From contig NZ_AP027142.1 in NCBI RefSeq assembly GCF_027925385.1, positions 974,001 through 1,038,000 of the forward strand: a stretch of 64,000 bases of DNA, in the 5' to 3' direction. The position numbers and the translations under genes were made by a program. Every line of letters begins with the position of its first letter. Within the stretch, counting starts at the first letter, position 1. The notes under the pieces are model-generated. The model worked only from the letters and a program-made list of their open reading frames with translations, did not search any database and was not told the origin of the DNA. The DNA comes from Methylocystis iwaonis. Lineage in GTDB: Bacteria; Pseudomonadota; Alphaproteobacteria; Rhizobiales; Beijerinckiaceae. Of this stretch, positions 4,485-50,056 are shown piece by piece.

Positions 4485-5946
4485 CTATCGAATGCACACA
4501 TCGTGATTGCCTCGGTCGGGTCTGTTTGATTCCGTGGGTCGCGTTTTGATTCGCGGGGTGGGGCATGGCGATTTCGTATGGACTGGGGCGGTTCGGCGAC
4601 CGCCGCCTGGAAAAAGGGGGGTCTCGTTGCATCGGGGCCTCGTCGCGCGGCCGTGCGCGCGCATCCGTCGGATCGCCGGCGGGCGGCGGGCGCAGGAGGT
4701 GCGGCTCGCGCGCTTCCTGCGCAATCCTGCGGTGACCGCCGAGGAGATGGCGCGGCACGCCGCCGGGCTCACAGCGGCGCGGGCGGCGGGTCGCGACATA
4801 GTGGTGGCGCAGGACACCAGCGAGCTGGCGCTCGGCGGCAAGCGCGCGCAGGCGAACGGCTATGGGCCGGTCGGCAAGGGCGGCGGGACGCGCGGCCTTT
4901 TGCTGCACGCGGCCCTGGCGCTCGACGCCGGCACGGGCGCGCTGCTCGGCCTCGCTCATGCCGAGGTCTGGAACCGCGACACGGGGGCCAAGGTCGCGGC
5001 GCGGCGCTCGCGCGCGCTCGCGGACAAGGAATCGCAGCGCTGGCTCGATGTGGCGACGCATGCGCGCGAGGATTTCGCGGCGGCGAAGCGGATCACTGTC
5101 GTCTCGGATCGGGAGAGCGACATCTACGCGCATCTCGCGCAGCGTCCGGGCGGCGTGGAGCTGATTGTGCGCGCCTGCCAGAACCGGACGATCGCCGCAG
5201 ACGGCGAGGATGCGATCGAGCTTTTGTTCCCCTTCGCCGACGGATTGGCCGAGGCGGGCCGCTTCGTCGCCGAGATCCCGGCGGCTCCGGGACGCAAGGC
5301 GCGCAAGGCGGCGCTCGCGGTCCGCGTCTCGCCGGTCACTTTGCGCAAGCCGCGCCACGGCGCGCGCGACTTGCCGGACGCGGTCGGCGTGACTTTGGTC
5401 GACGTGCGCGAGGTCGGGGCCGCCGAGGGCGTCGCGCCCATTCATTGGCGGCTTCTCACGACCCATGCGGCGACGAGCCTGGCCGAGGCGCGCCGGGTGA
5501 TCGACCTCTATCGAATGCGCTGGACCATCGAGGAATTCTTCCGCACGCTGAAGACGGCGGGCTTCGAGATCGAGCAGGCCGACATCTGCGATCCGAAAGT
5601 GATGATCAAGCTGGTGGCGGCGACGGCGGTCGCCGCTGTGACGGTCATGCAACTGGTCAAGGCGCGCGACGGCGCGACCGACCAGTTGCTGACGGACGCT
5701 TTCGAGCCCGAGGACGAAGCGCTGCTCGAGGCCGTCTCGGCGAAGCTCGAGGGCGCGACGGCCCGCCAGAAGAACCCCCACCGCAAAGGCAGCCTCGCCT
5801 TCGCCGCCTGGGTCGTCGCCAGGCTCGGCGGCTGGACCGCCTATTACGGAAAGCCCGGCCCCAAAGTAATGCGCCAGGGCCTCGACGACTTTCGACGAAT
5901 AAAGTTCGGAGCCGCGCTGACCTTCTACGATGTGTGAATCCGATAG
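4485..5946 (+). mobile_element. Tn5-like IS4-family insertion sequence with intact ends
   Basis: The element is 1462 bp long. The left end CTATCGAATGCACACATCGT and the reverse complement of the right end CTATCGGATTCACACATCGT agree at 18 of 20 positions. It is bracketed by a perfect 10-bp direct repeat, CGCTTTAGCG (4475-4484 and 5947-5956), within the size range expected of IS4-family target duplications. The intact duplication suggests a recent insertion. The target is the loop of a BIME palindrome between a binding-protein gene and its ATPase gene. Confidence 0.93.
4565..5937 (+). CDS. IS4-family (Tn5-like) transposase, apparently needing a -1 frameshift
   Basis: The main reading frame ending at 5937 carries the DDE core: DTSEL (first Asp), DRESDIY (second Asp) and the YREK signature YRMRWTIEEFFRTLK with the catalytic Glu. 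The expected IS4 N-terminus (LGRFGDRRLEKGG, compare LGDPRRTARL in Tn5) is in another frame starting at ATG 4565. The two join by a -1 shift at the A5G6 run at 4611-4621. The alternative is an in-frame start further left (ATG 4507), but its first 35 residues do not look like a transposase. The shift may be programmed, a disabling mutation or a homopolymer sequencing error. Confidence 0.85.
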
Positions 5947-6030
5947 CGCTTTAGCGGGGGAGGGACAGGGAGGGGGCAAAACGGCCGCGATAACGAATGC
6001 AACTAATCGAGGTCGGCGGGGATGCCCCCC

Positions 6031-6111
6031 GCCATTGCGAGCGAAGCGAAGCAATCCAGCGGCCCCATAGCGGCTCTGGATTGCTTCGTCGCTGGCGCTC
6101 CTCGCAATGAC
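6031..6111. repeat. 80-bp palindromic repeat (GTCATTGCGAG family)
   Basis: A long hairpin: CATTGCGAGCGAAGCGAAGC pairs with GCTTCGTCG...CTCGCAATG across a CGGCCCCATAGCGGCTC-type loop. The same unit occurs at 2300, 13876, 14172, 29779, 36320, 51200, 54088 and 57572. It lies just past the stop of the binding-protein gene. Confidence 0.88.
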
Positions 6112-6122
6112 GGTCGTTGGTC

Positions 6123-7112
6123 TCACCGGCGCAACTCCATCCCGACCTTTTTGCCGATGAAGCGCAGCGTGTAGCCCTTCTTGTAATTGAGGTCGGCCGG
6201 AACAACTCCCGCCCTGGCCATCTTGTCGAAAAAGCTCTTCATGCGCGCGTCAGTCATGGCGCCGACGCCCAATGTCAGAGAGTCGCCAGAATCCACAATG
6301 CCGCGTTCTTTCATCTTGGCGAGCGAGAAGGCGATCTGGCCGTCGGTCATCTCGGGGTTGTCGCGCTTGATGGCGGTGTTGGCGCTGGCGTTATCGCCAT
6401 AGATGTAGTTGTACCAGCCGATGATTGAGGCGTCGACGAAGCGCTGCACGAGATCAGCTTTCTTCTCGACCGTCTCCGCGCGCGTCTCTATCGTCGTCGA
6501 ATAGCCATCATAGCCAATATCCGACAGCAAAAAGACGTTAGGCCTGAAGCCGGCCCGCATCTCGATCGCATAGGGCTCGGAGGTCAAAAGCCCCTCCTGA
6601 ATGGAATTCTTGTCAGCGATGAAAGGCGCCGAATTGAAGCCATAGGGCTTCACTTTCTCGTCCCTAAAGCCATAGGCCTGTTTCAGCCACCGCCACACCG
6701 AGGCGCGCATGTCGCTGGCGATGAAGGCGGTCGCCTTCGGCAAATCCTCGAAGCGGTCGAGCCCCACGCCCGGATGCGACATGAAGATCACGGGGTCGAT
6801 CTGGAACATGCTGGCGACGGTGACGATCGGCACGTTCTGCTGGATGGATTCGAACATCTGGATCGTATTGGCGCCCATGGCGAAATCGACGCGGCCCGCT
6901 GCGAGCAACAGCCGCGCATTGATCTGCGGCCCGCCCTGCTGGATCGTCACGTCGAGCCCGTAGCGCGCATAAGTGCCGTCGGCCACAGCCTGATAAAATC
7001 CGCCGTGCTCGGCTTGCGCGCGCCAATTGGTGGCGAAACTCACCTTGTCGAGGGCGTGCGCCGGCAGGGCAAAGAGGATCGTCAGAATTGCAATAAAGAG
7101 ACGAGGAAACAT
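6123..7112 (-). CDS. ABC transporter substrate-binding protein (NMT1/ThiY-like)
   Basis: 329 aa from ATG 7112, chosen because it begins directly with a signal peptide (MFPRLFIAILTILFALPAHA, then LDKVSF); an in-frame ATG at 7145 would add 11 unlikely residues. The mature protein has the NMT1/THI5-like periplasmic fold: FATNWRAQAEHGGFYQA, GLDVTIQQGGP, VDFAMGAN. This group binds pyrimidine precursors of thiamine, riboflavin-like compounds or sulfonates; the ligand here is not determinable. It would be the first gene of the binding protein-ATPase-permease operon but is now separated from the ATPase by the IS and repeats. Confidence 0.87.
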   Translation of the reverse strand: MFPRLFIAILTILFALPAHALDKVSFATNWRAQAEHGGFYQAVADGTYARYGLDVTIQQGGPQINARLLLAAGRVDFAMGANTIQMFESIQQNVPIVTVASMFQIDPVIFMSHPGVGLDRFEDLPKATAFIASDMRASVWRWLKQAYGFRDEKVKPYGFNSAPFIADKNSIQEGLLTSEPYAIEMRAGFRPNVFLLSDIGYDGYSTTIETRAETVEKKADLVQRFVDASIIGWYNYIYGDNASANTAIKRDNPEMTDGQIAFSLAKMKERGIVDSGDSLTLGVGAMTDARMKSFFDKMARAGVVPADLNYKKGYTLRFIGKKVGMELRR

Positions 7113-7159
7113 CTGCTGCGGCGCTCCGTTAGGCCGTAGCAGCATATATCAAACCCGCC

Positions 7160-8494
7160 TCAGACGCCGCTGGATTTGGACGAGAAGTGGAACTTCTCCG
7201 CCAGCATGGGCGGAGCCGCCGCTGCGCCGCCGCCCCCCGCCGCGCGCCAAGTCCGCTCGGTTTTGCCCAGCGCGACGATATTGCCGAAGAGTTCGCCCAA
7301 CCGCTGGTTGAAGCGCATGTTGCGCACCGGCGCGCTCACGCGGCCATTCTCGATGAGGAAATTGCCGTCGCGGGTGAGGCCGGTGAGCAGCAGGCTCTTC
7401 CGGTCGACCATATTCTCGTACCAGAAGCGCGTGACGAGCACGCCACGCTTCACCGAGCGGATCATGTCGTCGAGCGAAGCGTCGCCGCCTTCGACCACGA
7501 AATTGGCCGCGAAGGGAATGGCCTCCGCGTTGGTCTTCTGCGCCCATGCGCGCGAGCGATAGAGCGCGCTCACCACGCCCTTGTCGATGAAAGCGCGGGC
7601 GCGATGCGGCACGCCTTCCCAACCGACGCCGCCCTCCGGCGCAAGCGGATCGGCGGGGTCGACGCGAATCGTCAGCTTCTCGTCGAAGAGCTTTTCGCCG
7701 ATCTTCGTCCCGCCGCCCGCCCGCGCATAGAAGCTGCGGCCTTCGTCGGCGGCGCGGGCGTCCATGGCGCTCATCACCCAGAAAGCGAGCTCCGCGACGG
7801 CGGCGGGTTCAAGGATCACCGTGTAATCGCCGGGCTCGAGATCAACGGGCTCTGCGTCATGAGCCGCCTTCGCGCAGGCGCGCCGCGCAATGCTGTCCGC
7901 ATCGAGGCGGGCGCTGATGAATTCATGCGCGCCCGCCCAGCCCGACCATGTGTCCGTCTTGTTGCGCGCCGTCGCCGAAAGGTCGATCTCGCTCCAGCGT
8001 TCAAAGGCGAAGAGCCCGTTGCTCGTGGCGAGCGCGGAATAGCGCCGCGCGCCGGTCGCGCAGCCGAAAGTATCGACGCCCTGTCTGACGCCTTCCGCGA
8101 TGACGCGCGCCGCTTGCGCCGCAAGCGCGTCGAGGCGAAAGCCCGATGCGTCTTCGTCATAGCGCGCCGAGGCGTCGTAAGTCTGCGGGCCGAGCGGCGC
8201 GACATAGTCGGGGTCGACCGGCAACATGCGCGCGATCTCCTCCGAGCGCGCGCGCGCGGCGTTAAGCGCATCATCGTCGAGGCGCGTCGTGGTGACCGCG
8301 CCGACGCGCCCCCCAATATGCGAGGAGATGCGCAGGCGCGCTTTCGAGGTTGTGATATTGGTCGTCGCGCCGCCGCGCGCGAAGCGCAGGCTATTGTCCT
8401 CGCCGCCGTCGATCTTCACCACGCAGGCGTCGGCGCTGGACCCTGCGATGATCTTCTCGCTGATGGCTTTGGCGTCGTCAGAAGAAAGAAGCAT
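7160..8494 (-). CDS. TldE/PmbA-family metalloprotease partner subunit
   Basis: 444 aa of the TldD/PmbA family. It lacks the HExxxH motif of its neighbour, as expected for the TldE-type subunit that forms the substrate cavity of the TldD/TldE heterodimer. Family landmarks include SGWAGAHEF, PGDYTVILEPAAVAELAFWVM and a C-terminal LGELFGNIVALGKTERTW. It starts three bases after the stop of the tldD-like gene, so the two are co-transcribed and made in similar amounts. The known role is cytosolic maturation of modified peptides or degradation of unfolded peptides; the substrate here is unknown. Confidence 0.88.
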   Translation of the reverse strand: MLLSSDDAKAISEKIIAGSSADACVVKIDGGEDNSLRFARGGATTNITTSKARLRISSHIGGRVGAVTTTRLDDDALNAARARSEEIARMLPVDPDYVAPLGPQTYDASARYDEDASGFRLDALAAQAARVIAEGVRQGVDTFGCATGARRYSALATSNGLFAFERWSEIDLSATARNKTDTWSGWAGAHEFISARLDADSIARRACAKAAHDAEPVDLEPGDYTVILEPAAVAELAFWVMSAMDARAADEGRSFYARAGGGTKIGEKLFDEKLTIRVDPADPLAPEGGVGWEGVPHRARAFIDKGVVSALYRSRAWAQKTNAEAIPFAANFVVEGGDASLDDMIRSVKRGVLVTRFWYENMVDRKSLLLTGLTRDGNFLIENGRVSAPVRNMRFNQRLGELFGNIVALGKTERTWRAAGGGGAAAAPPMLAEKFHFSSKSSGV

Positions 8495-8497
8495 GCG

Positions 8498-10039
8498 TTA
8501 CGCGCCAGGGCTTGTGTTGAGCACCCGCACATTGCGGAAGCGCGCGGGCGGGCTGCCATGTGAGACGGGCGCCACCTGCACGGGCTCGGCCTTGCCGCAG
8601 GTGAAGGTGCCGTCGAGATGATAGGTGCTCGCGTCGCCGAGCCCGTCGAGCGAATTCCAGAAAGGAATCGTGCGGCCCTGATAGGCGACGTCGCGCAGCA
8701 TCTCGCCGAGCCTGCCGTTCTTGATCTCGTAGAAGAGCTGGCCGCCGAATTGGAAATTGTCACGCTGCTGGTCGATGCTCCAGCTTCCGGCGCCGACGAC
8801 ATAGACGCCGTTCTCCACGCCGGTCACGAGGTCGTCGAGTGTGCATTTTTCCGGGTTCGGCGCGAGCGAGATATTGGGCATGCGCTGGATCGGGAACGAG
8901 GTCGGATCATCTGCATAAGCGCAGCCATTCGAGGCGGAAAGGCCGATATGATGCGCTTGCCCCAGCGCCATTTGGAAGTTTTTCAGCACGCCCTTCTCGA
9001 CGATGTTGAATTCGGCCGAGGCGGCCGGCGCGCCGTCGTCGTCATAGCCGATGGTCGCGAGCGCGCCGGGCTGCGAACGGTCGGCGACGATGGTCATCAG
9101 CTCCGAGCCGAAGCGGAGATTGCCGAGCATCGCCGGCTTGATGAAGCTGGTGCCGGCGAAATTCGCTTCCCATCCCAGCACGCGGTCGAGCTCGGTCGAA
9201 TGGCCGACCGTTTCGTGGATCGTGAGCCAGAGATTGGTCGGGTCGATGACGAGGTCGTAATCGCCGGCGGTGACGGGTTTGGCCGTGAGCTTGGCGCGCG
9301 CCTCGCGGCCGGCCGTTGCGGCTTCTTCGAGAAGGCGGGCGCTCGTCACATATTCCCAGCCGGCGCCGCGCGCCGGGACCAAGCTCTCGCGCGAGGCCAT
9401 GCGGTCGGCGGCGCGATCGACGGCGGTGGCGGTAAAGGAGGGATGCACGCGCGTGCGCGTCTGCCGAATGCGCGCGCCGAGACTATTGGCGAAGAGGCGC
9501 TCTTCACGCGCGATGGAGAGCGAGGCCGAGCAGAAATCCGCGCCATTGTCGCGCGCCGTAGCGCAGATGGACAAAAGCAGGTCGGATTTCTCCCGCGACG
9601 AGACCGATAAAGGATCGACGCCCATGGGCATGATCCATTCGGCCTCATGCGCCGGGAGCTGCTCCAGCTCGATCGCGCGCGGCTGGATCACCCGCATGGC
9701 CCGGGCGTTGTCCAAGGCGCGTTGGACGCCTTCCCGAATGCTTGCCGGATCGAGACGGCGTGCGCCATAGAAGCCCCAGGAGCCGTCGAGCAGCACGCGC
9801 AGCCCGAAGCCGCGCGACATGCGTTCGTCGAAATGTTCGAGCCGGTCATCCTCGGCTTGCGCATATTCTTGCAGCGTTTCGCCCAGGCGAATGTCCGCAT
9901 AGCGCGCGCCGCCGCGCTTGGCGCCATCCAGCGCAAGATCGGCGAGACTGTCGAGCAAGGCGCGGTCCAGCGCGAAGCGGTCGCCGCTGGCCGTCGCGCG
10001 CTCGGGCGCGTCCCTGACAGGCGCATATGTCGGCGCCAC
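8498..10039 (-). CDS. TldD-family zinc metalloprotease
   Basis: 513 aa. The catalytic HExxxH motif is present as HETVGH (His275, Glu276, His280), and the C-terminal part has the family's Cys/Gly-rich end (FTCGKAEPVQVAPVSHGSPPARFRNVRVL). The start is a GTG (10039) behind a strong AGGAGG eight bases upstream. It forms an operon with the tldE-like gene. Established family role: the Zn2+-dependent active subunit of the TldD/TldE protease, acting on short or unfolded peptides. Upstream lies a repeat, then the RluA-like gene. Confidence 0.9.
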   Translation of the reverse strand: MAPTYAPVRDAPERATASGDRFALDRALLDSLADLALDGAKRGGARYADIRLGETLQEYAQAEDDRLEHFDERMSRGFGLRVLLDGSWGFYGARRLDPASIREGVQRALDNARAMRVIQPRAIELEQLPAHEAEWIMPMGVDPLSVSSREKSDLLLSICATARDNGADFCSASLSIAREERLFANSLGARIRQTRTRVHPSFTATAVDRAADRMASRESLVPARGAGWEYVTSARLLEEAATAGREARAKLTAKPVTAGDYDLVIDPTNLWLTIHETVGHSTELDRVLGWEANFAGTSFIKPAMLGNLRFGSELMTIVADRSQPGALATIGYDDDGAPAASAEFNIVEKGVLKNFQMALGQAHHIGLSASNGCAYADDPTSFPIQRMPNISLAPNPEKCTLDDLVTGVENGVYVVGAGSWSIDQQRDNFQFGGQLFYEIKNGRLGEMLRDVAYQGRTIPFWNSLDGLGDASTYHLDGTFTCGKAEPVQVAPVSHGSPPARFRNVRVLNTSPGA

Positions 10040-10079
10040 TTCAGCTTCCTCCTAGGTTCATCCCAATCCTGCGCTCGGC

Positions 10080-10183
10080 GTCATTCCCGACGTTCGAGAA
10101 GCGGGCGATCGGGAATCCAGAGCCGGTACACGCTTGTTTTGGCTCTGGATTCCCGGTCAGGCTTCCAGCCCGCCGGGAATGAC
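10080..10183. repeat. Palindromic repeat of the GTCATTCCCG family
   Basis: Two hairpin arms beginning GTCATTCCCGACG and ending CGCCGGGAATGAC, joined through CCAGAGCC...GGCTCTGG. Its right-hand flank runs to the stop codon of the RluA-like gene (10210-10212). Same family as 13999, 32343, 36457, 51333 and the half copies at 2257, 54202, 57529 and 57667. Confidence 0.85.
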
Positions 10184-10209
10184 AAGGCCCAAGGCTCAAG
10201 CGCAGGGCA

Positions 10210-10956
10210 TTACTCGGTTATATTGAGCGCTTCCGGCTGGTTTAGCAATTCTGGCGCCATTGTGGCGCTAGCGTTGCTGTCCTTCCGCCAGCCACAAGCG
10301 GCCATGGCCTCCAGCATATGCGCCGGCGCCGGCGCTTGCGTGCGCACGGGCTCCTTGCTGTCCTGCATGGGGATAGTGATTGCCCGGGCATGGAGATGCA
10401 GCGGCGGCGCGCCCTCGCGTCGTCCGCCCCCATAGATCGGGTCGCCCAAAATCGGCCAGCCCATCGCCTGCGCATGGACCCGGATTTGGTGCGTGCGGCC
10501 GGTATGCGGGGTGAATTCGATGAAGGACAAGCCCGCCTCGGGCGCGCGGCCGAGCACGCGCCAGCCCGTGCGCGAGGGCAGCCCCATGGGGTCCGGCTGC
10601 ATCCACCAGCCGCGCGTGGCGTCGAGCCGGCCGAGCGCAAGGTCGATCTCCCCCGCGTCGCCTTCCGGCGCGCCTTCCACGACGGCCCAATAGCTCTTGG
10701 AGATGCGCCCGGTCTTGAAGAGCTTGCCCAGCCGGTCGAGCGCCTTGCGGTGGCGGCCCAGCACCAGGCAGCCGGAGGTGTCCTTATCCAGCCGGTGGGC
10801 GAGCGCCGGGGCGCGCGGCAGGCCGAAGCGCAACTGGTCGAAAGCGTCTTCGAGGCTCGGGCCCCCCTTGGGGCCGCGATGCACGGGAACGCCGGCAGGC
10901 TTGTCGATGACGAGCATCAGCCCGTCGCGGTGGAGCAGTCGGGAGAGAAGATCCAT
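10210..10956 (-). CDS. RluA-family RNA pseudouridine synthase
   Basis: 248 aa, a catalytic domain without an N-terminal S4 domain. The RluA signature HRLDKDTSG gives the catalytic Asp57; RTHQIRVHAQAMGWPILGDPIYG is the conserved C-terminal motif. The enzyme converts specific uridines to pseudouridine in rRNA or tRNA. The lack of S4 and the small size resemble RluA/TruC-like enzymes, but the target base cannot be assigned. The start ATG 10956 leads straight into the fold (LLSRLLHRDGLMLVIDKPAG). The stop codon abuts a repeat. Confidence 0.9.
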   Translation of the reverse strand: MDLLSRLLHRDGLMLVIDKPAGVPVHRGPKGGPSLEDAFDQLRFGLPRAPALAHRLDKDTSGCLVLGRHRKALDRLGKLFKTGRISKSYWAVVEGAPEGDAGEIDLALGRLDATRGWWMQPDPMGLPSRTGWRVLGRAPEAGLSFIEFTPHTGRTHQIRVHAQAMGWPILGDPIYGGGRREGAPPLHLHARAITIPMQDSKEPVRTQAPAPAHMLEAMAACGWRKDSNASATMAPELLNQPEALNITE

Positions 10957-10980
10957 GAGCAGCTTATATCAGGGCGGCTT

Positions 10981-11772
10981 CTACCTGCGCGCCGCGTCGT
11001 TGCGGGCGAGCGTCATGGCCGAGCCGATGAACCCGCCGTATTTGTGATAGGCCGCGTCGGTCAGATGCACGCCGTCGAGCGTGTAATTATCTTCATGCCC
11101 CTCGAATTTGTCGATGAAATTATCGAACTCGATCGTCTGCAGCCGGGGATGATCGCGCCACAGCGCGACGCGATAGACGTCGTTCACCTGATAATCGCAT
11201 CCGTCGTAGAGACAGCGGAAGATTGTGCGCTTGATCAGGCTGAAGAGGTTCGGCGGCTTGAACCAGCGTTCGTTCACGCGCGGGATGGAGACGACTTCGA
11301 CCTCGCTCGCGTCCGAAAAATAATCGACGAGCTTCTCGGTGAACTCCACATAGGCGCTAGCGCCGATATGTTGGATCGCGTCATTGACGCCGGTCATCAG
11401 AATGACCTTGTCCGGCGCATTGCCCTCATAGAGGGAGTAGAGCCTGTCTTTTGGGAATTTCTTGCGCAGCTCCGCGTAGAGAAGGCGGGAGTTGCGGCCG
11501 TTGAAGCCGATGCTGCAGGCCCGCACGCCCCGGCCGCCCAGCCGCTCCGAGACGGTCCTGGGCAGGTCCGGGAAAATCTTGCCGTCGGAAGCCCAGGATT
11601 CGCCGACGACCAAAATCCGGTAATTATTCGGGCCGTCGTTGACGAGGGAGCAATCGACCGTCGGCGCGTCGGACCGCTTGAGGCTCAATAGGCCGAGGCC
11701 GGTCACGACGGCGAGGAGGAAGAACGCGCGCCGCAGATTTGGCAGCAGAACCGCAAACCTCAGCCTCAGCAA
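10981..11772 (-). CDS. SGNH/GDSL-type hydrolase, membrane-anchored
   Basis: 263 aa starting at a TTG (11772), so the start is less certain. Residues ~13-30 form one membrane anchor; the rest is an SGNH hydrolase fold with the block I Ser59 in VGESWAS, the block III Asn in TGVND, and the Asp/His pair in DGVHLTDAAYHKYG. Such domains remove or transfer acetyl groups on surface polysaccharides. It lies 80 bp behind an acyltransferase-3 gene on the same strand. The two halves correspond to the fused AT3-SGNH proteins (OafA type) that O-acetylate exported glycans. The glycan is unknown. Confidence 0.82.
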   Translation of the reverse strand: MLRLRFAVLLPNLRRAFFLLAVVTGLGLLSLKRSDAPTVDCSLVNDGPNNYRILVVGESWASDGKIFPDLPRTVSERLGGRGVRACSIGFNGRNSRLLYAELRKKFPKDRLYSLYEGNAPDKVILMTGVNDAIQHIGASAYVEFTEKLVDYFSDASEVEVVSIPRVNERWFKPPNLFSLIKRTIFRCLYDGCDYQVNDVYRVALWRDHPRLQTIEFDNFIDKFEGHEDNYTLDGVHLTDAAYHKYGGFIGSAMTLARNDAARR

Positions 11773-11852
11773 AGCGCCGCCCTCCGCTGCGGCATGACGC
11801 CGCAGCGGCCGGAAGCTATCAGCTTCGCGCGCCAGCCGCTACATCGACGAGA

Positions 11853-12875: not shown

Positions 12876-13068
12876 TGCTGCTCCAAGTCGCGCCGGGATC
12901 GAAGCTGCCACCATTACGCGCTTGTTGCGCCGCGGCGGTGTGGCAAGAGGTCGCGAGGGGGCGCGGGCGCCTGCGGCGTGGGGTCGCAGGCGGCAAGCCC
13001 AAATGCTTGCGTGGATTGTCCGCGAGACTGGTGTTTGCGGCGCAAACCAAGTCCTGTACTAATCCGGC

Positions 13069-13869: not shown

Positions 13870-13875
13870 GCACGC

Positions 13876-14826: not shown

Positions 14827-14845
14827 TGTCGGGAGAAAGAATAGC

Positions 14846-14876
14846 TAAAAAAAAGGCCGCCCGTTTCCGGGCGGCT
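14846..14876 (-). terminator. Rho-independent terminator of the rplJL-rpoBC operon
   Basis: Read on the minus strand, the stem GCCGCCCG/CGGGCGGC with a GAAA-type loop is followed by eight T residues (14854-14847). It lies 26 bases past the rpoC stop. The geometry is that of a strong intrinsic terminator. Confidence 0.92.
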
Positions 14877-14901
14877 TCTGTTTCTCACGCGCTGAGCAGC
14901 G

Positions 14902-19077
<4,176 letters not shown>

Positions 19078-19302: not shown

Positions 19303-19314
19303 GGCATGTGTTGA

Positions 19315-38626: not shown

Positions 38627-38640
38627 GCGCGGCCGACAGG

Positions 38641-38775
38641 CCCTCTCCCCAACCCTCCCCCGCCATAGGGCGTCTGCAAGACGCCCGTCTCTCGACGGGC
38701 TATCGCGGGAGAGGGAGCGGTTCGTCGTCTTCATCAAGAATGCTGATCGTAAGCGTCCCCTCTCCCGCTTTAGCG
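38641..38775. repeat. BIME-like composite repeat with a nested hairpin, left of IS copy A
   Basis: The outer palindrome CCCTCCCCCGC...GCGGGAGAGGG holds a second palindrome in its loop (38663-38705, CATAGGGCGTC...GACGGGCTAT), of the same family as the rpoB-rpoC gap. A spacer (CGTCTTCATCAAGAATGCTG) leads to the second BIME palindrome, which breaks at its loop where the IS begins and resumes at 40066-40095. Confidence 0.85.
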
Positions 38776-40065
38776 CAGGGCTGTCCGGGGAATGAGTCGA
38801 AAGGTCGCGGGCGCATGCCCGGTTTTCCCGACGGTTGTCGGGTATTTTCCGGTTGTCGAGACTGGAAAAAAGGACCGGACATGCCCGTGCACTCTACTGT
38901 ATTCGCCCAACTGCTCAAGCCGGTCGATCGGCGCGCCTTCAAGCAGATCGTCGAGCGGCATGGCGGCGACGCCTACGACAAATCCTTCAAGAGCTGGGAT
39001 CACCTCGTCGCGCTCATCTACGCCCAGCTTGCCGGGGTCTCCAGCCTGCGCGCCCTCGTTCCCGCCTTCAACGCCGACGCGCGCGCGCATTATCACCTCG
39101 GGACGCGGCGGCTCGCGCGCACGACCCTTTCCGACGCCAACGCCCGCCGGCCCGTCGCCGTCTTCGCCGATCTCTTCGCCATGCTCTCCGGCGCGCTCGA
39201 CCGTCATACGCGCCGGGAGGGCGCGGACATGATCCGCCTCATCGATTCGACGCCCATCCCTTTGAGCAAATTCCTCGATTACGCCCGCTCCAACGGCCGC
39301 ACTCACGGCCTCAAAATGCACGTGGTCCATGACCCGCGCGCCAATCGGCCCCTTCGCGCGGAAGTCACGCCCGCCAATGTGAACGACATAGAGATCGGCA
39401 AGAAAACCGATATCGAGCCGGGCGCCGCTTATGTCTTCGACAAAGGCTATTGCGACTATCGCTGGTGGACCGAGATCGCCGCGCAAGGCGCTTTCTTCGT
39501 CACCCGGCCGAAGGCGAACGCCCGCTTCCGGGCGATCGCCGCCCGCCCGCTCGACCCCGAAAGCGCGCGGGGCGACGGCTTCGCCGTGATCGCCGACGAG
39601 GAGGTGGCGCTGGCCAGCAAAGGCGATTCCAAGCTGCCCATGCCGCTGCGGCGCATCACCGTGGAAAGAGACGAGGCCAAAGGCCGCATCGTCCTCATCG
39701 TCAACGACATGCGCCGCCCGGCCGCGGAAATCGCCGCGCTCTACAAGGGCCGCTGGGCAATCGAGCTGCTGTTCCGTTGGATCAAGCAGCATCTCAACAT
39801 CAAGAGCTTCATCGGCGAGGCCGAAAACGCCGTGCGCCTGCAGCTCTTCGCCGCGATGATCGCCTTCACCCTGCTGCGCATCGCCGCCTGCGTCCACAAG
39901 ATCGACATGGCGGCACTGCGTTTCGCCGAGCTCGTCGGCCGCTTCCTCTTCGACCGCCGGCCGATCGCGCTTATCGACAAGCCGCCAATCAGGCCCAAGC
40001 CCGGCCGAGACTTCTCTAGTCTGCAGCTCCAGCTCGCGGCCCTATGATTTCCCCGGACAGCCCTG
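38776..40065 (+). mobile_element. IS4-family insertion sequence, copy A
   Basis: 1290 bp. The terminal inverted repeats are CAGGGCTGTCCGGGGAA at the left and its complement at the right (38776-38792, 40049-40065). Copy B at 48670-49959 has the same length, an identical transposase and opposite orientation. No target-site duplication: the left flank is CGCTTTAGCG and the right flank is CGTGAAACGG. The insertion is in the loop of a BIME palindrome. Confidence 0.95.
38881..40047 (+). CDS. IS4-family transposase (DUF4372 + DDE), copy A
   Basis: 388 aa from ATG 38881 with an AAGGA site. The N-terminal DUF4372-like domain (FAQLLKPVDRRAFKQIVERHGGD, SWDHLVALIYAQLAG) precedes the DDE core: Asp122 in LIDSTPIPL, Asp187 in YVFDKGY, and Glu295 in YKGRWAIELLFRWIK, which matches the IS4 Y-R-E-K spacing. 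The frame is complete and identical in copy B, so it is probably active or recently so. Confidence 0.95.
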   Translation: MPVHSTVFAQLLKPVDRRAFKQIVERHGGDAYDKSFKSWDHLVALIYAQLAGVSSLRALVPAFNADARAHYHLGTRRLARTTLSDANARRPVAVFADLFAMLSGALDRHTRREGADMIRLIDSTPIPLSKFLDYARSNGRTHGLKMHVVHDPRANRPLRAEVTPANVNDIEIGKKTDIEPGAAYVFDKGYCDYRWWTEIAAQGAFFVTRPKANARFRAIAARPLDPESARGDGFAVIADEEVALASKGDSKLPMPLRRITVERDEAKGRIVLIVNDMRRPAAEIAALYKGRWAIELLFRWIKQHLNIKSFIGEAENAVRLQLFAAMIAFTLLRIAACVHKIDMAALRFAELVGRFLFDRRPIALIDKPPIRPKPGRDFSSLQLQLAAL

Positions 40066-40095
40066 CGTGAAACGGGGGAGGGACAGGGAGGGGGC
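40066..40095. repeat. BIME arm right of IS copy A
   Basis: CGTGAAACGGGGGAGGGACAG and the G-rich tail form the second half of the palindrome split by copy A. The 30 bases are identical to the complement of 48640-48669 next to copy B. Confidence 0.8.
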
Positions 40096-40193
40096 GCCTC
40101 CTCATTGTCGATGGCTATGAAGGCTTGCATCGCGCGGCGTCTACAACAAGACGGACTACGAACCGCAGGAATGAAACCCGACAGGAAGTTCGA

Positions 40194-40730: not shown

Positions 40731-40759
40731 CCGTCCAGGTCTTCCAGCTTGTTGTTCGA

Positions 40760-43171: not shown

Positions 43172-43229
43172 GTGCTTTCCTGGATTAGGGGCGATGGTCT
43201 TACCGCAGGAAAAGCCCTGCGTCGATGCG

Positions 43230-44462
43230 CTACCGGGTCGCGCGCGCGAGCATTCGGTCGTAAACTGCAAGGGTTTCCGCGACATGGCGCTCCAGCGTCG
43301 CCGGCGACGCCCAATAGGCGTCATAGGCACGGTTCGACATTTGCGCGATCACTGCGTCGTTTCTCAGCTCGCGGATGGCGGAGGCAAGCGACTCTCCGTC
43401 GCCGCTCTTGAACCATAATCCGGTAACGCCATCCTCCACCGCCTCGCGCGCCGCACAGCCGTCGGCCACGATGACCGGCGTGCCCATCGCCTTCGCTTCC
43501 AGCGCGGTAAGCCCGAAGGTCTCGTACCAGAGCGAGGGAAACACCAAGGCGCGCGCAGCGCGCATCGCCGCGCGCACCTCTGCCGGCGAGCGCCAGCCGA
43601 GGAGTTGCGCTTGCGGATAGCGCGCGGCAAGCTCCCCGGCGATCGGGCCGTCCCCGATGAAGATCGGCGTCACGCCCACCCGCTGCGCCGCTTCGGCGAA
43701 GAGAAACGCGCCCTTTTCGGCCGAAAGCCTGCCCACGAAAAGGAAGCCGCCGTCTGTCGGGTCGCCCTTATGGCCCAGCGGCTCGGCTTCCACCGGATTG
43801 GTCACGCGATGGATGGCCGCACCTGCCGGCAGACAGGAGGCGAGCACTTTCTCCTGCAGATCGGAGAGCAGCAGAATATCTGAAAAGGTTTCAGCCAGAT
43901 GCGCGACATGCTCGGCGATGAAAAGGCGGATGTTGCGCCATAACTTGAACGGATAGTTGCGCGAGTCGCAATGCGTCGTCCAGCAGGCGAAGGACATGGG
44001 CTTCAAGGGGCAGACTTCGTTTTTCTGGAAATTGTAGAATCCGCCATTCGGGCAGCTCAGGAAGAATTCATGCATCGTATAGGCGGCGGGCAAGCCGCTC
44101 GCCTGTATCGGCCTGGCGATCGACGGCGACAGCGCCTTCGCCCAGCCATGCACATGGACGATCGCTCGCTCCCTCGCGAGTGCGCTCAGTGTCTCGTCGA
44201 GCGCCTTTGCGGCTTCGAAATTCCAGATTCCCTGCCGGGCCGCGTCGAGGCGGGAGGGATTGCCGAGAATATCATGCTGGCCGAGACTAACGGTTTCGAC
44301 GCCGGCCGCCTCTAAGCGCGCATCGGCCGGGCCGCAGGCGGAAAAGAAAATCACCCGGGCGCCCGCGGCCTTCAGGCCCAGCGCGCTTTCGATCGCGACC
44401 TTGGATTGGCCGCCGCTGACAAAGGCATGATCCACGCAGATGACGACGGTGAACGGGCGCAT
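43230..44462 (-). CDS. Glycosyltransferase family 4
   Basis: 410 aa, GT-B fold. The N-terminal acceptor domain starts VVICVDHAFVSGGQSKVAIE and has YTMHEFFLSCPNGGFYNFQ with a Cys-containing insert (CPLKPMSFACWTTHCDSRNYP). The C-terminal donor domain includes FLFVGRLSAEKGAFLFAEA and the EX7E-like region YETFGLTALE. It transfers a sugar from a nucleotide donor, probably in exopolysaccharide or LPS assembly. No other glycan genes are adjacent. Confidence 0.9.
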   Translation of the reverse strand: MRPFTVVICVDHAFVSGGQSKVAIESALGLKAAGARVIFFSACGPADARLEAAGVETVSLGQHDILGNPSRLDAARQGIWNFEAAKALDETLSALARERAIVHVHGWAKALSPSIARPIQASGLPAAYTMHEFFLSCPNGGFYNFQKNEVCPLKPMSFACWTTHCDSRNYPFKLWRNIRLFIAEHVAHLAETFSDILLLSDLQEKVLASCLPAGAAIHRVTNPVEAEPLGHKGDPTDGGFLFVGRLSAEKGAFLFAEAAQRVGVTPIFIGDGPIAGELAARYPQAQLLGWRSPAEVRAAMRAARALVFPSLWYETFGLTALEAKAMGTPVIVADGCAAREAVEDGVTGLWFKSGDGESLASAIRELRNDAVIAQMSNRAYDAYWASPATLERHVAETLAVYDRMLARATR

Positions 44463-44680
44463 GGCGGCTCCAGGGAAAAGACGCGGAACCTTACCGAGGC
44501 GAGCTTGCGCGGGCGTAAATGCGCGGCGCCCTCAATGTATTCATAGGTTTAAAGCTAAGCTTTATTAATCTTTTGCGCGCAATTCTGGCAACTGTGCAAT
44601 TATCGAGTGCTTTGTCTGCGAAACGCGTTGCGAGCGAGAGACAATCCATTTGATTTTAGCGCGGGCACGGGAAGCGCTTC

Positions 44681-46546
44681 ATGGATAGGGCGGACATGGA
44701 CTGCAGCGGCTGCGGGAAGCCTTCCATGCTCGGGCTGAAAGCAATACAGCACGCGGCTCTGGAAGGCGTCGCGCGCGACCAGCCCGTGAAGGCGATCATG
44801 AACCGGCTCTGCCTTCAGGTGGAGCGGCTGGCGCCGGGCGTCATCTGCTCGATTCTGTCGGTGGACCCTCTGGGAAAATTGCGTGTGCTGGCGGCGCCAA
44901 GTCTGCCGGAGGATTATTCCGCCGCGATCGATGGTCTGCTGATCGGCCCGTCGGTCGGCTCCTGCGGCACGGCCGCCTATTTCGGAAAATCCGTCGAGGT
45001 GACGGACATCGCCACCGATCCGCTCTGGGCGGATTTCAAGGATCTCGCTTTGCCGATCGGGCTGCGCGCCTGCTGGTCGTCGCCCATACGCGCCTCCGAC
45101 GGCCGGGTCATCGGCGCTTTTGCCTTCTATTACCGCACCTGCCGTGGCCCGAGCGCGCTCGACCGCACCATTGTCGAGGCCTGCATAAACCTTTGCGCCA
45201 TTGCTCTGGAGCAGGAGGAGCGCAAAGCCAGCATCCATCGCCTCGCTTATTTCGACGGCCTGACCGGGGTCGCCAATCGCGCGGCGTTCGAAAAGCGTGG
45301 ACGCGAGGCGGTGTCGGAGGCGGTCAAGAACGACTCCAGCCTCGCCATCCATTGGATCGATCTGGACGGCTTCAAGAATATCAACGATACGCTTGGTCAC
45401 GGGGCCGGAGACGCGGCGCTGCAAATCATCGCCAAGCGGATTGCGGACGTGCTGCGCTCTGGAGAGTATCTCGCCCGGATCGGCGGCGATGAATTCGTGG
45501 TGCTCCAGCAAGCCGCCGGCAAGCAGGAGGAGGTCGAGGCGCTCGCCCGCCGGCTGATCGCGGCGGCGAGCGAGCCCGTCGATTTCGGCTTCGGGGTCTT
45601 CACCTCGATCGGCGCCAGCATCGGGGTCGCGCGCGCGCCGCAGGACGGCCTGGCGCTTCCCGATCTGATGAAAAAGGCCGACCTCGCGCTCTATGAGGCA
45701 AAGCTCGCCGGCCGCAGGCGGTTCTGCTTTTTCGACGCCGAGATCGAAGCCCATTTCGCCTCGCGCTGGCAATTGGAGCAAGATCTCAAGCTGGCGCTCG
45801 CCCGTCAGGAGTTCGAGCTCTATTTCCAGCCGATCGTCGATCTTGCCGAGGCGAAGCTCGCAGGCTTCGAGGCGCTGCTGCGCTGGCGCCGGCCGGGCCA
45901 CGGTTTGCTGAGCCCGCCGCTGTTTCTCGACATCGCCGAACGCATGGGGCTGATCAACGACATTGGCGCCTGGGTTTTGAAGGAGGCCTGCACATGCGGG
46001 GCGTCGCTGCCGCACCCGCTTCGCGTCGCCGTCAATCTCTCGCCGACGCAATTGCTCAAGCCCGGCTTTGCGCTGGAGGTGGCCAGGATCGTCGGCGAAA
46101 GCAAATTCTCCCCACGCCGGCTCGAGCTCGAAATCACCGAATCGGCGCTTTTTCTGGAGAACAGCGCCACGCTCGCTTGCCTGAAGGATCTGCGGCGCCT
46201 CGGCATTTCCGTCGCCCTCGACGACTTCGGCACGGGATTTTCGGCTTTGTCGCATCTGCGGGTTTTCCCGGTCGACCGGATCAAGATCGACCGGTCCTTC
46301 GTGCAGGAGGCCGACAAAAACCCCGAAACGGCGTCGATCATCCGCGCCATCACCGGGCTGGCGCGGGAGCTCGGGGTCAGGACGACGGCCGAGGGAATCG
46401 AAACCGAGGCGCAGTTGCGCAAGCTCAAGAGCCTGGGCTGCGACGAAATCCAGGGCTATCTCGTCAGCCGCCCCAAGCCGCTCGGGGCCTTCCAGAATTT
46501 GGAGGAGCTGGCGGTCGGCGGCTCCCGCCCGGCGAAGACGGCGTAA
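44681..46546 (+). CDS. GAF-GGDEF-EAL cyclic-di-GMP protein
   Basis: 621 aa without membrane segments. Residues ~20-185 form a GAF domain (GPSVGSCGTAAYFGKSVEV). The GGDEF motif is intact at residues 268-272. The EAL domain begins at Glu397-Ala-Leu and keeps the metal and catalytic motifs NLS, ELEITES, DDFGTGFSAL, KIDRSFV and TAEGIET. Both diguanylate cyclase and phosphodiesterase activity are therefore possible, with the GAF domain deciding the balance. The gene stands alone on the plus strand. A 218-bp spacer before it holds no recognised repeat. Confidence 0.95.
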   Translation: MDRADMDCSGCGKPSMLGLKAIQHAALEGVARDQPVKAIMNRLCLQVERLAPGVICSILSVDPLGKLRVLAAPSLPEDYSAAIDGLLIGPSVGSCGTAAYFGKSVEVTDIATDPLWADFKDLALPIGLRACWSSPIRASDGRVIGAFAFYYRTCRGPSALDRTIVEACINLCAIALEQEERKASIHRLAYFDGLTGVANRAAFEKRGREAVSEAVKNDSSLAIHWIDLDGFKNINDTLGHGAGDAALQIIAKRIADVLRSGEYLARIGGDEFVVLQQAAGKQEEVEALARRLIAAASEPVDFGFGVFTSIGASIGVARAPQDGLALPDLMKKADLALYEAKLAGRRRFCFFDAEIEAHFASRWQLEQDLKLALARQEFELYFQPIVDLAEAKLAGFEALLRWRRPGHGLLSPPLFLDIAERMGLINDIGAWVLKEACTCGASLPHPLRVAVNLSPTQLLKPGFALEVARIVGESKFSPRRLELEITESALFLENSATLACLKDLRRLGISVALDDFGTGFSALSHLRVFPVDRIKIDRSFVQEADKNPETASIIRAITGLARELGVRTTAEGIETEAQLRKLKSLGCDEIQGYLVSRPKPLGAFQNLEELAVGGSRPAKTA

Positions 46547-46620
46547 GCGCGGCCATTCGTCCGCCAGTCCTTTGGCTGGAGCCTCGCGCATCGCCTTCCG
46601 AATCGCGCTAAGATGGCCGC

Positions 46621-48636
46621 ATGGCCACGAAACCCGATCTTTTCGGCGGCGCGCCGCGCAAGGCGCCCGCGCCCAAAACCGCCGCGAAACCGACCCCCGC
46701 GGAATATGACGCCGGCTCCATCGAGGTGCTCGAGGGGCTGGAGCCCGTCCGCCGGCGCCCCGGCATGTATATCGGCGGCACGGACGAGACCGCGCTGCAC
46801 CACCTCTTCGCCGAGGTGCTCGACAACGCCATGGACGAGGCTGTCGCCGGCTACGCCACCTTCATCGAAGTGACGCTGGAGCCCGATGGCTGGCTGACGG
46901 TCAACGACAATGGCCGCGGCATCCCGGTCGGCCCGCATCCCAAGATGAAGGACAAATCCGCGCTGGAGGTCGTCATGACCGTCCTTCACGCGGGCGGCAA
47001 ATTCGATTCCGGCGCCTATCAGACCTCCGGCGGCCTGCACGGCGTCGGCGTGTCGGTTGTGAACGCTTTGTCCGAGAAGGTGGAAGTCGAGGTCGCGCGC
47101 GAGCAGCAGCTCTACCGCATGGCGTTCTCGCGCGGCCTGCCGCTCGGCAAGCTCGTCAATGTCGGCAAGATCAACAATCGCCGCGGCACGCGCGTGCGCT
47201 TCAAGCCGGACGCCCAGATTTTCGACGCGAACGCCCATTGGAAGCCGGCGCGGCTCTTCCGCATGGCGCGCTCCAAGGCCTATCTCTACGGCGGCGTGGA
47301 AATCCGCTGGCGCTGCGACCCGTCGCTCATCGAGCCAGGCTCGGACGTTCCCGCCGAAACGGTGCTGTGCTTCCCCGGCGGGTTGAAGGACTATCTCGCC
47401 CGCGAGACGCATGACAAGGAGCTCGTCACCGACCAGCCTTTCTCCGGCAAGGTGACGCGCGAAGGGGGCCATGGCTCGCTCGAATGGGCGGTCGCCTGGT
47501 TCGCCGAGGATGACGGCTTCATCCATTCCTACTGCAACACGGTCTGGACGCCGGACGGCGGCACGCATGAGGCGGGTCTTCGAAACGCGCTATTGAAGGC
47601 GTTGAAGGACCACGCCGATCGCACTGGTCAGACAAAACGCTTCAAGGACGTGACCGCCGACGATCTGATGAGCCAGGCGGCGGCGATGATCTCCGTCTTC
47701 ATCCGCGATCCGCAATTCCAAGGCCAGACCAAGAACCGGCTGATGAGCGCCGATGGCGCGCGCATCGTCGAGGGAACGGTCCGCGACGCCTTCGACCATT
47801 GGCTCGCCGCCGCGCCGACGCAGGCCAATAAGCTGCTCGATTTCGCGGTGACGCGCGCCGAGGAGCGCCTGCGCCGCAAGGCCGAGAAGGACGTCGCCCG
47901 CAAGACCGCGACGCGCAAATTGCGGCTGCCGGGCAAGCTCGTCGACTGCACCAATAATTCGGCGGAAGGCTCCGAGCTTTTCATCGTCGAAGGCGATTCG
48001 GCCGGCGGCTCCGCGAAGGAGGGCCGCAATCGCACCATGCAGGCCATTCTTCCCCTGCGCGGCAAAATCCTCAACGTCGCCTCGGCGACGAAGGACAAGC
48101 TCCTCGCCAATCAGCAGCTCGCCGATCTCACGCAGGCGCTGGGCTGCGGGCTCGGCGCGCATTATCGCGAGGAGGAGCTTCGCTACGAGAAGGTCATCGT
48201 GATGACCGACGCCGACGTCGACGGCGCCCATATCGCGTCGCTGCTCATCACCTTCTTCTACCGGCAAATGCCGCGGCTCATCGAGAACGGCCATCTCTAT
48301 CTGGCCCAGCCGCCGCTCTATAAGCTCACGCAAGGGGCGAAAACGGTCTATGCCCGCGATGACGCGCATCGCGACGAGCTGATCCGCACCGTGCTCACCG
48401 GCAAGGGCAAGGTCGAGACCAATCGCTTCAAGGGCCTGGGCGAAATGAGCGCCGCCCAGCTCAAGGAGACGACCATGGACCCGGGTAAGCGCACGCTGCT
48501 CAAGGTGGTTCTGGTTGGAGAGGAGCGCGAGGAGGTGGCCGATTGCGTCGAGCGGCTGATGGGCAACAAGCCCGAGGCGCGCTTTGCCTTCATCCAGGAG
48601 AAGGCGGCCTTCGCGACGGAATTGCTGGATATTTGA
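46621..48636 (+). CDS. parE: DNA topoisomerase IV subunit B
   Basis: 671 aa, the length of ParE rather than GyrB (~800 aa). The GHKL ATPase domain has EVLDNAMDEA, NGRGIPVGPHP and GGLHGVGVSVVNALS. The TOPRIM domain contains VEGDSAGGSAKEGRNR and the metal Asp pair in TDADVDGAHIASLL. GLGEMSAAQLKETTMDP is near the end. With ParC it decatenates daughter chromosomes; essential. It lies just inside the inverted IS copies, and its stop is four bases from a BIME arm. Confidence 0.96.
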   Translation: MATKPDLFGGAPRKAPAPKTAAKPTPAEYDAGSIEVLEGLEPVRRRPGMYIGGTDETALHHLFAEVLDNAMDEAVAGYATFIEVTLEPDGWLTVNDNGRGIPVGPHPKMKDKSALEVVMTVLHAGGKFDSGAYQTSGGLHGVGVSVVNALSEKVEVEVAREQQLYRMAFSRGLPLGKLVNVGKINNRRGTRVRFKPDAQIFDANAHWKPARLFRMARSKAYLYGGVEIRWRCDPSLIEPGSDVPAETVLCFPGGLKDYLARETHDKELVTDQPFSGKVTREGGHGSLEWAVAWFAEDDGFIHSYCNTVWTPDGGTHEAGLRNALLKALKDHADRTGQTKRFKDVTADDLMSQAAAMISVFIRDPQFQGQTKNRLMSADGARIVEGTVRDAFDHWLAAAPTQANKLLDFAVTRAEERLRRKAEKDVARKTATRKLRLPGKLVDCTNNSAEGSELFIVEGDSAGGSAKEGRNRTMQAILPLRGKILNVASATKDKLLANQQLADLTQALGCGLGAHYREEELRYEKVIVMTDADVDGAHIASLLITFFYRQMPRLIENGHLYLAQPPLYKLTQGAKTVYARDDAHRDELIRTVLTGKGKVETNRFKGLGEMSAAQLKETTMDPGKRTLLKVVLVGEEREEVADCVERLMGNKPEARFAFIQEKAAFATELLDI

Positions 48637-48640
48637 TTGG

Positions 48641-48669
48641 CCCCCTCCCTGTCCCTCCCCCGTTTCACG
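48641..48669. repeat. BIME arm left of IS copy B
   Basis: CCCCCTCCCTGTCCCTCCCC then CGTTTCACG. It is the reverse complement of the arm to the right of copy A (40066-40095) and starts four bases after the parE stop codon. Confidence 0.8.
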
Positions 48670-49959
48670 CAGGGCTGTCCGGGGAAATCATAGGGCCGCG
48701 AGCTGGAGCTGCAGACTAGAGAAGTCTCGGCCGGGCTTGGGCCTGATTGGCGGCTTGTCGATAAGCGCGATCGGCCGGCGGTCGAAGAGGAAGCGGCCGA
48801 CGAGCTCGGCGAAACGCAGTGCCGCCATGTCGATCTTGTGGACGCAGGCGGCGATGCGCAGCAGGGTGAAGGCGATCATCGCGGCGAAGAGCTGCAGGCG
48901 CACGGCGTTTTCGGCCTCGCCGATGAAGCTCTTGATGTTGAGATGCTGCTTGATCCAACGGAACAGCAGCTCGATTGCCCAGCGGCCCTTGTAGAGCGCG
49001 GCGATTTCCGCGGCCGGGCGGCGCATGTCGTTGACGATGAGGACGATGCGGCCTTTGGCCTCGTCTCTTTCCACGGTGATGCGCCGCAGCGGCATGGGCA
49101 GCTTGGAATCGCCTTTGCTGGCCAGCGCCACCTCCTCGTCGGCGATCACGGCGAAGCCGTCGCCCCGCGCGCTTTCGGGGTCGAGCGGGCGGGCGGCGAT
49201 CGCCCGGAAGCGGGCGTTCGCCTTCGGCCGGGTGACGAAGAAAGCGCCTTGCGCGGCGATCTCGGTCCACCAGCGATAGTCGCAATAGCCTTTGTCGAAG
49301 ACATAAGCGGCGCCCGGCTCGATATCGGTTTTCTTGCCGATCTCTATGTCGTTCACATTGGCGGGCGTGACTTCCGCGCGAAGGGGCCGATTGGCGCGCG
49401 GGTCATGGACCACGTGCATTTTGAGGCCGTGAGTGCGGCCGTTGGAGCGGGCGTAATCGAGGAATTTGCTCAAAGGGATGGGCGTCGAATCGATGAGGCG
49501 GATCATGTCCGCGCCCTCCCGGCGCGTATGACGGTCGAGCGCGCCGGAGAGCATGGCGAAGAGATCGGCGAAGACGGCGACGGGCCGGCGGGCGTTGGCG
49601 TCGGAAAGGGTCGTGCGCGCGAGCCGCCGCGTCCCGAGGTGATAATGCGCGCGCGCGTCGGCGTTGAAGGCGGGAACGAGGGCGCGCAGGCTGGAGACCC
49701 CGGCAAGCTGGGCGTAGATGAGCGCGACGAGGTGATCCCAGCTCTTGAAGGATTTGTCGTAGGCGTCGCCGCCATGCCGCTCGACGATCTGCTTGAAGGC
49801 GCGCCGATCGACCGGCTTGAGCAGTTGGGCGAATACAGTAGAGTGCACGGGCATGTCCGGTCCTTTTTTCCAGTCTCGACAACCGGAAAATACCCGACAA
49901 CCGTCGGGAAAACCGGGCATGCGCCCGCGACCTTTCGACTCATTCCCCGGACAGCCCTG
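48670..49959 (-). mobile_element. IS4-family insertion sequence, copy B (inverted)
   Basis: 1290 bp, in opposite orientation to copy A with the same terminal repeats (CAGGGCTGTCCGGGGAA) and identical transposase. In IS orientation its right flank equals that of copy A for 30 bases and its left flank is a near-copy (CCCGCTTGCGG against CCCGCTTTAGCG). No target-site duplication is seen. With copy A it brackets 8.6 kb containing parE. Confidence 0.95.
48688..49854 (-). CDS. IS4-family transposase (DUF4372 + DDE), copy B
   Basis: 388 aa, residue-for-residue identical to the transposase of copy A: DUF4372-like N-terminus, catalytic Asp122, Asp187 and Glu295. The start is ATG 49854; the open frame continues further upstream through the IS end and the BIME repeat without coding meaning. 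Two identical copies imply recent duplication or ongoing gene conversion. Confidence 0.95.
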   Translation of the reverse strand: MPVHSTVFAQLLKPVDRRAFKQIVERHGGDAYDKSFKSWDHLVALIYAQLAGVSSLRALVPAFNADARAHYHLGTRRLARTTLSDANARRPVAVFADLFAMLSGALDRHTRREGADMIRLIDSTPIPLSKFLDYARSNGRTHGLKMHVVHDPRANRPLRAEVTPANVNDIEIGKKTDIEPGAAYVFDKGYCDYRWWTEIAAQGAFFVTRPKANARFRAIAARPLDPESARGDGFAVIADEEVALASKGDSKLPMPLRRITVERDEAKGRIVLIVNDMRRPAAEIAALYKGRWAIELLFRWIKQHLNIKSFIGEAENAVRLQLFAAMIAFTLLRIAACVHKIDMAALRFAELVGRFLFDRRPIALIDKPPIRPKPGRDFSSLQLQLAAL

Positions 49960-50056
49960 CCGCAAGCGGGAGAGGGGACGCTCACGATCAGCATGGTCTA
50001 TGAAGTCCGCAATCTGCCCCCTCTCCCGCGAAGCGGGGGAGGGTTGGGGAGGGGGC
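49960..50056. repeat. BIME-like composite repeat right of IS copy B
   Basis: It resumes the split palindrome (CCGCAAGCGGGAGAGGGGAC), then the conserved spacer (complement of GCAGATTGCGGACTTCATAG), then an intact palindrome CCCTCTCCCGCGAAGCGGGG. This is the mirror image of the layout at 4388-4484. Confidence 0.83.

Follow-up and report, generated by a model that had tools for sequence, protein, structure and literature searches.

Three copies of two types of insertion sequence (IS) lie in a 64,000-nucleotide stretch of Methylocystis iwaonis DNA (contig NZ_AP027142.1, positions 974,001 to 1,038,000; referred to here as the window), and each interrupts a short palindrome at its loop, which raises the question of whether these elements select palindromes as targets. 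The elements are a Tn5/IS50-like IS, here termed IS-A, present once, and a DUF4372 IS, here termed IS-B, present twice; the boundaries given for all three copies by an earlier inspection of the letters alone (the sequence-only reading) were exact (Table 1). All three junctions fall in the loop of a palindrome of the CTCCC-loop-GGGAG type, and each split palindrome is paired with a second palindrome across an asymmetric spacer of roughly 40 to 50 bp. The names repetitive extragenic palindrome (REP) and bacterial interspersed mosaic element (BIME) are used as descriptive terms for these repeats. IS-A has imperfect ends of 18 bp, CTATCG[AG]AT[GT]CACACATC, while the ends of IS-B, CAGGGCTGTCCGGGGAA, are 17 bp long. 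The IS-A copy is flanked by a perfect 10-bp duplication, CGCTTTAGCG, the sole perfect one among the three window insertions, as the half-sites differ at both IS-B copies. The right half-site of the IS-B copy at 38776, CGTGAAACG, recurs at another copy (L027) and, reversed, at a third (L021).

Across the 4.48-Mb genome, 14 copies of IS-A (13 complete) and 16 of IS-B (15 complete) were found, sharing 99 to 100% identity. REP-type palindrome halves were present on both sides of all 13 complete IS-A and all 15 complete IS-B copies, and a palindrome half was also found at the single remaining end of the truncated copies, L014 and L034. The sequence-only reading would have been overturned by other copies lying at random in unrelated sequence; instead, among the 30 copies found, no surviving end lacks a palindrome half. 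Exact target duplications of at least 8 bp flank 18 of the 28 complete copies (8 of IS-A and 10 of IS-B), with a length of 10 to 11 bp at all eight IS-A sites and 9 bp at those of IS-B. A centred stem of at least 8 pairs, counted ungapped and with one mismatch allowed, was found at 8/8 IS-A and 10/10 IS-B exact sites, compared with 258 of 20,000 random positions drawn from a 400-kb sample. If the sites are independent, the chance of 18 of 18 is 0.0129^18, about 1e-34, and the excess of loop insertions suspected from the window is thus beyond chance and real genome-wide. The truncated copies were dropped before counting, as was row L181, which is the same element as L180. Folding energy was also tried as a test and was not discriminating, as GC-rich random 50-mers fold equally strongly; the ungapped-stem count was used in its place.

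The target palindromes are of several types, including CTCCCGC.., CTCCCC-TTT[AG]C-GGGGAG, CCTTCTCCCGC.. and CTCTCCCCGC.., and the second of these, or half of it, was seen by eye beside 4 of the 13 complete IS-A copies (L002, L007, L008, and L010) and none of the 15 complete IS-B copies. The three window insertions had been described as splitting the second palindrome of a pair. The loop junction holds for all three window copies, but "second" is not general: by eye, 11 insertions lie on the GAGxGTC side and nine on the GCAG side among the 20 of 28 complete copies with a recognizable spacer, a count that omits the eight copies whose spacer type could not be recognized. Both palindromes are occupied in three repeat pairs (L004/L006, L012/L027, and L013/L020), in two cases with IS-A in one palindrome and IS-B in the other. 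Three stretches with intact repeats gave 12 matches in Rfam, all below gathering scores and mostly to microRNA. An identity as the REPs associated with REP-associated tyrosine transposases was considered and rejected, with no CTCCC..GGGAG palindrome found within about 1.5 kb of the genome's two PF01797 (Y1_Tnp) matches.

Twelve of the 28 complete sites were examined in the same-species genome G445. Ten (L001, L005, L007, L008, L010, L011, L022, L024, L026, and L028) are collinear and empty there and have an intact palindrome, with 135 of 135 aligned columns around the junction identical for L028 and 128 of 135 for L022; the palindromes therefore preceded the insertions. Empty sites of this kind in a related genome, which the sequence-only reading had proposed to look for, do exist. 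For L001, L010, L011, L022, and L028, the empty palindrome contains a single copy of the duplicated bases, the exception being L026, where the G445 palindrome has a different centre. The remaining two sites, L021 and L025, both occupied by IS-B in the window genome, fall at contig ends in G445. At L025 (window position 38776), two contig ends carry both ends of IS-A, with CGCTTTAGCG on either side, in the same palindrome; at L021, two contig ends likewise carry IS-A, with unlike halves. The adjacency of these contig pairs was inferred from the order in the window genome, and termini of IS-A or IS-B occur at only these 4 of 30 ends (15 readable G445 contigs, with five small contigs masked). In another genome, G002, the L021 site is empty and has a nested hairpin in its loop. 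The flanks of L025 lie 2.2 Mb apart on one G002 contig, so that a breakpoint of a rearrangement separating the two genomes coincides with this REP. Comparison of L011 with its G445 counterpart, L183, showed the spacer between the paired palindromes apparently inverted, which suggests that such a pair can flip.

Target choice by the transposases themselves would best explain this pattern, and it is likely that the IS-A and IS-B transposases choose GC-rich dyads, make a staggered cut on the dyad, and have their half-sites exchanged later. The transposase appears to read the duplex, that is, the dyad and the C-to-G polarity of its arms, and not an extruded hairpin, because this polarity is constant. 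At 18 of 18 exact sites, the left arm is C-rich and the right arm G-rich, while the genome holds 308 CTCCC..GGGAG arm pairs versus 91 GAGGG..CCCTC pairs; by proportion this gives (308/399)^18 = 0.009, with many of the 91 G-to-C pairs probably being short chance arms. Recognition of a folded hairpin or cruciform shape and not of duplex sequence would suit insertions that are centred on the loop and loops that vary in sequence. It is nevertheless unlikely, as none of the exact sites has the polarity of the 91 G-to-C pairs and as ISRm16, a relative of IS-B in Sinorhizobium meliloti, accepts target stems with mismatches (for example, CTTCGCCCC..GGGGAGAAG). The genome-wide loop excess and the empty orthologous sites show that the palindromes are indeed targets, as had been proposed, but targeting need not be by structure; recognition of duplex sequence fits at least as well because the targets in this genome keep a C-rich arm, a loop, and a G-rich arm.

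Gyrase and integration host factor (IHF)-like proteins bind E. coli BIMEs, and a host protein of this kind bound to REPs might recruit the transposases, as could be supposed from the convergence of two transposases of different IS4-family models on the same sites. This is improbable in view of other elements in the same and related hosts. IS-E, an element unrelated to IS-A and IS-B that is present in the same genome in six copies (PF00665 transposase, 3- to 4-bp duplications), ignores REPs: no REP core was found in its flanks and the centred stem was at most 6 pairs (0/6 at the threshold of at least 8). Specificity therefore follows the element, not the host. Four rve elements (IS-F, L140 to L143), the ends of which were not fixed, were excluded as a control. 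Distant IS50-like elements (L065, L066, L067, and L039; 26 to 31% identical) also lie outside palindromes, with a centred stem at 0/4; three of these are from same-genus genomes, and L066 and L067 share flanks in two genomes, leaving three independent sites. Homologues in other genera, by contrast, retain the habit. The genome of S. meliloti (CP090106.1) contains 23 distinct copies of an element named ISRm16 in the record annotation, 19 with exact duplications, and a centred stem of at least 8 pairs was found at 16 of these 19 sites, in a REP of different sequence. Elements of the IS-A clade in other genomes (37 to 60% identical) have such a stem at 8 of 11 exact sites, which include three copies from genome G007 and two from G343. 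Left out of this count were L063, which has unlike halves, L035, which lacks an exact duplication at the ends selected, L036, which lies at a contig edge, L126, L127, and partial matches; the class-wide surveys yielded few relatives, and at most four candidates were scored per genome. A third IS50-like element, 47% identical to IS-A, lies inside a palindrome loop at L015 (G000:C1:3648409-3649535), and its other copy, L016 (1220895-1222021), was placed by eye at the margin of a hairpin nested within a palindrome. In a tree of 15 transposases, the 12 IS-A-clade sequences, nine labelled palindrome targeting and three with a weak palindrome or none, split from the three distant ones, none of which carries the label, with support of 100/100. 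Intrinsic recognition is favoured because, from one host to another, the specificity goes with the transposase and not with the host.

Exact duplications of at least 8 bp are missing from 5 of the 13 complete IS-A and 5 of the 15 complete IS-B copies. The half-sites of L012 and L030 have a one-base difference; others hold a half from another palindrome. Reciprocal rearrangement as the cause was ruled out for L005, L007, L008, and L024, the flanks of which are collinear in G445, and gene conversion is therefore favoured over reciprocal exchange. L007 offers the clearest example: it is identical to L008 over IS-A and its flanks, for 27 bp to one side and 108 bp to the other, identity stopping at about the end of the repeat. 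The G445 counterpart of L007 has a different spacer, while that of L008 has the spacer that L007 and L008 share. Apparently, IS-A was copied from L008 to L007 along with the whole BIME, and these comparisons suggest that half-sites have been exchanged among copies by gene conversion. Homologous recombination between REPs, and not transposition, could in principle have spread most copies, as the 10 copies without exact duplications and the BIME-wide copy would allow. That is very improbable, since 18 of the 28 complete copies have exact 9- to 11-bp duplications at the dyad, as transposition predicts, and the duplicated bases are single in the empty G445 palindromes named above (not L026). REPs are extragenic and insertions there are probably harmless, but selection alone, with insertion anywhere and survival only in noncoding REPs, is scarcely credible, as IS-E copies persist outside REPs in the same genome and gene avoidance cannot by itself centre 18 of 18 sites to within a few bases. 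That the palindromes serve as safe landing sites for IS elements is plausible.

Several observations weigh against target choice by the transposases as a full account. The 10 of 28 complete copies without exact duplications indicate that not all are simple single insertions. Among the relatives, 3 of the 19 exact ISRm16 sites and 3 of the 11 IS-A-clade sites have no centred stem of at least 8 pairs, and locus L035 (64% identical) has no clear palindrome. The palindrome label requires four changes on the tree, and 138 of 500 shuffles needed as few, so that it is not significantly clustered and a single origin is not supported. A looser centred-hairpin rule was passed by 693 of 3,000 random sites and by 3 of the 6 IS-E sites. 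Finally, the only IS-A junctions found at G445 contig ends lie on two palindromes that IS-B occupies in the window genome, for which uniform chance gives roughly (16/280)^2 = 0.003, assuming about 280 palindromes; this coincidence is unexplained by uniform targeting.

Under target choice by the transposases, IS-A and IS-B would be cut-and-paste elements, IS-B with IS4Sa-like ends, and the target would consist of a C-rich arm, a short centre, and a G-rich arm, a form for which the REP/BIME palindromes provide fitting sites here. A staggered cut would be centred on the dyad, spanning 9 bp for IS-B and 10 to 11 bp for IS-A. DDE transposases in general form a two-fold symmetric synaptic complex, and a two-fold symmetric target cut about one helix turn apart would match it. 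After insertion, homology would extend beyond the element into the REP arms, allowing half-sites to be exchanged by gene conversion. Tentatively, REP-loop targeting may thereby provide a second spreading route, in which the element and its half-sites are copied from REP to REP by gene conversion and REPs act as dispersed, exchangeable cassettes, any one of which can hold different elements in different strains.

Other elements appear to be associated with the same repeats. A hairpin of about 40 bp with CGTC/GACG motifs replaces the short loop in some REPs (window positions 38655 to 38711; L059, 3172 to 3227; and L186, the G002 site of L021) and is perhaps another small element using the same spot. 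At about 61930 to 63270 in the window lies a gene that resembles a transposase and spans two overlapping frames, and which we take to be IS481-like by its TGACAG motifs (see also L016, L033, and L034); one of its ends was seen at four places, and at three of these it lies directly at the outer edge of a REP pair. The neighbouring site that had been taken for an unsplit copy of the repeat is no ordinary intact palindrome, as its loop is doubled (Table 1). The doubled loop is possibly the remnant of a lost insertion, as would be expected if an IS-B had been excised from a hybrid site.

Table 1. Positions in the window of IS-A, IS-B, their target duplications or half-sites, and associated palindromes
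Feature	Position	Strand	Remarks
Intact first palindrome, partner of the palindrome split by IS-A	4402..4420		
IS-A left target duplication, CGCTTTAGCG	4475..4484		
IS-A, Tn5/IS50-like insertion sequence	4485..5946	+	1462 bp
IS-A right target duplication, CGCTTTAGCG	5947..5956		
First palindrome of IS-B (38776) pair	38655..38711		~40 bp nested hairpin inside loop
IS-B (38776) left half-site, GCTTTAGCG	38767..38775		
IS-B, DUF4372 insertion sequence	38776..40065	+	1290 bp; locus L025
IS-B (38776) right half-site, CGTGAAACG	40066..40074		Unlike left half
Half-site of second window IS-B, CGTTTCACG	48661..48669		Right half in element orientation
IS-B, second window copy	48670..49959	-	1290 bp
Half-site of second window IS-B, CCGCAAGCG	49960..49968		Left half in element orientation
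Intact partner palindrome, same pair as second window IS-B	50023..50041		
Unsplit palindrome with doubled loop	61888..61915		CGCTTGCGG then CGCGAAGCG, two half-sites back to back

Targeting of REPs by IS elements, including ISRm22 of the IS4 family, was published in 2006 (PMC1525189) and is not itself new; what is added here is its extension, at the REP loop, to the Tn5-like clade, with many exchanged half-sites. In the open-licence literature, covered mostly by titles and abstracts, no previous description of an IS50-like element restricted to REPs was found, nor, by title and abstract, any of such targeting in Methylocystis. The structural biology of the Tn5-like clade is well worked out, and as its relatives both target and ignore palindromes, the basis of target choice by DDE transposases could be tested by domain swaps. 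Copies with unlike half-sites are numerous, and the flanks of several are still collinear in a sister genome, which suggests that gene conversion of REP-borne elements extends past the ends of the elements themselves.

The IS-A transposase matches the NCBIfam model transpos_IS4_3 with 265.5 bits (cut-off, 160) and the IS-B transposase matches transpos_IS4_1 with 224.6 bits (cut-off, 115), and Pfam PF01609 is above its cut-off for both. For the IS4 family, target duplications the length of roughly one turn of the helix are described (PMC2266710), with which the duplications of 10 to 11 bp and 9 bp agree; both elements thus belong to the IS4 family and have a DDE transposase of the IS4 type. Calling them two unrelated types was therefore too strong, although their models and ends differ. 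Residues 35 to 420 of the IS-A transposase align with the Tn5 transposase (E = 1.5e-30), and IS-A shares the CT ends of Tn5/IS50. However, the IS50 subgroup is reported to make 8- to 9-bp duplications (PMC2266710) and Tn5 to have a milder palindrome preference (PMC1525189), whereas IS-A, which in this genome occurs only in palindromes, makes duplications of 10 to 11 bp; IS-A is thus IS50-like and not a member of the IS50 subgroup proper. IS-B, with its CAGGG ends and 9-bp duplication, has the CA ends and 8- to 10-bp duplication given for the IS4Sa subgroup (PMC2266710). That subgroup includes ISRm22 of S. meliloti, for which 10 of 10 copies are reported in REPs, on the palindrome axis and some with unlike repeats (PMC1525189), together with target-arm specificity (PMC2266710). 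By its published description, ISRm22 resembles IS-A and IS-B in being an IS4-family element that inserts on the REP axis, but its reported duplication is 6 bp, compared with 9 bp for IS-B. Its hybrid sites were ascribed by Tobes and Pareja to recombination between copies (PMC1525189). The transposase of ISRm16 is about 60 to 62% identical to that of IS-B, and the two elements share the same ends, a 9-bp duplication, and insertion in palindrome loops; they differ in host and in REP sequence, which for ISRm16 is mostly CCTTCTCCCCGC..GCGGGGAGAAGG-like. In Brucella, also an alphaproteobacterium, the Bru-RS palindromic repeats are described as insertion hot spots of IS711 (PMC2266754), which likewise resembles the present case but involves another element, with the target YTAR. 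ISPpu9 and ISPpu10 of Pseudomonas putida are two differing elements that insert at a single position within the same REP (PMC1525189) and, like IS-A and IS-B, share a target point within one genome, but they are of the IS110 family and have another type of transposase. In the type 1 association described for REP-targeting IS, all copies occupy one REP position (PMC1525189), and this is the arrangement found for 13 of 13 complete IS-A and 15 of 15 complete IS-B copies, as well as for the remaining ends of L014 and L034.

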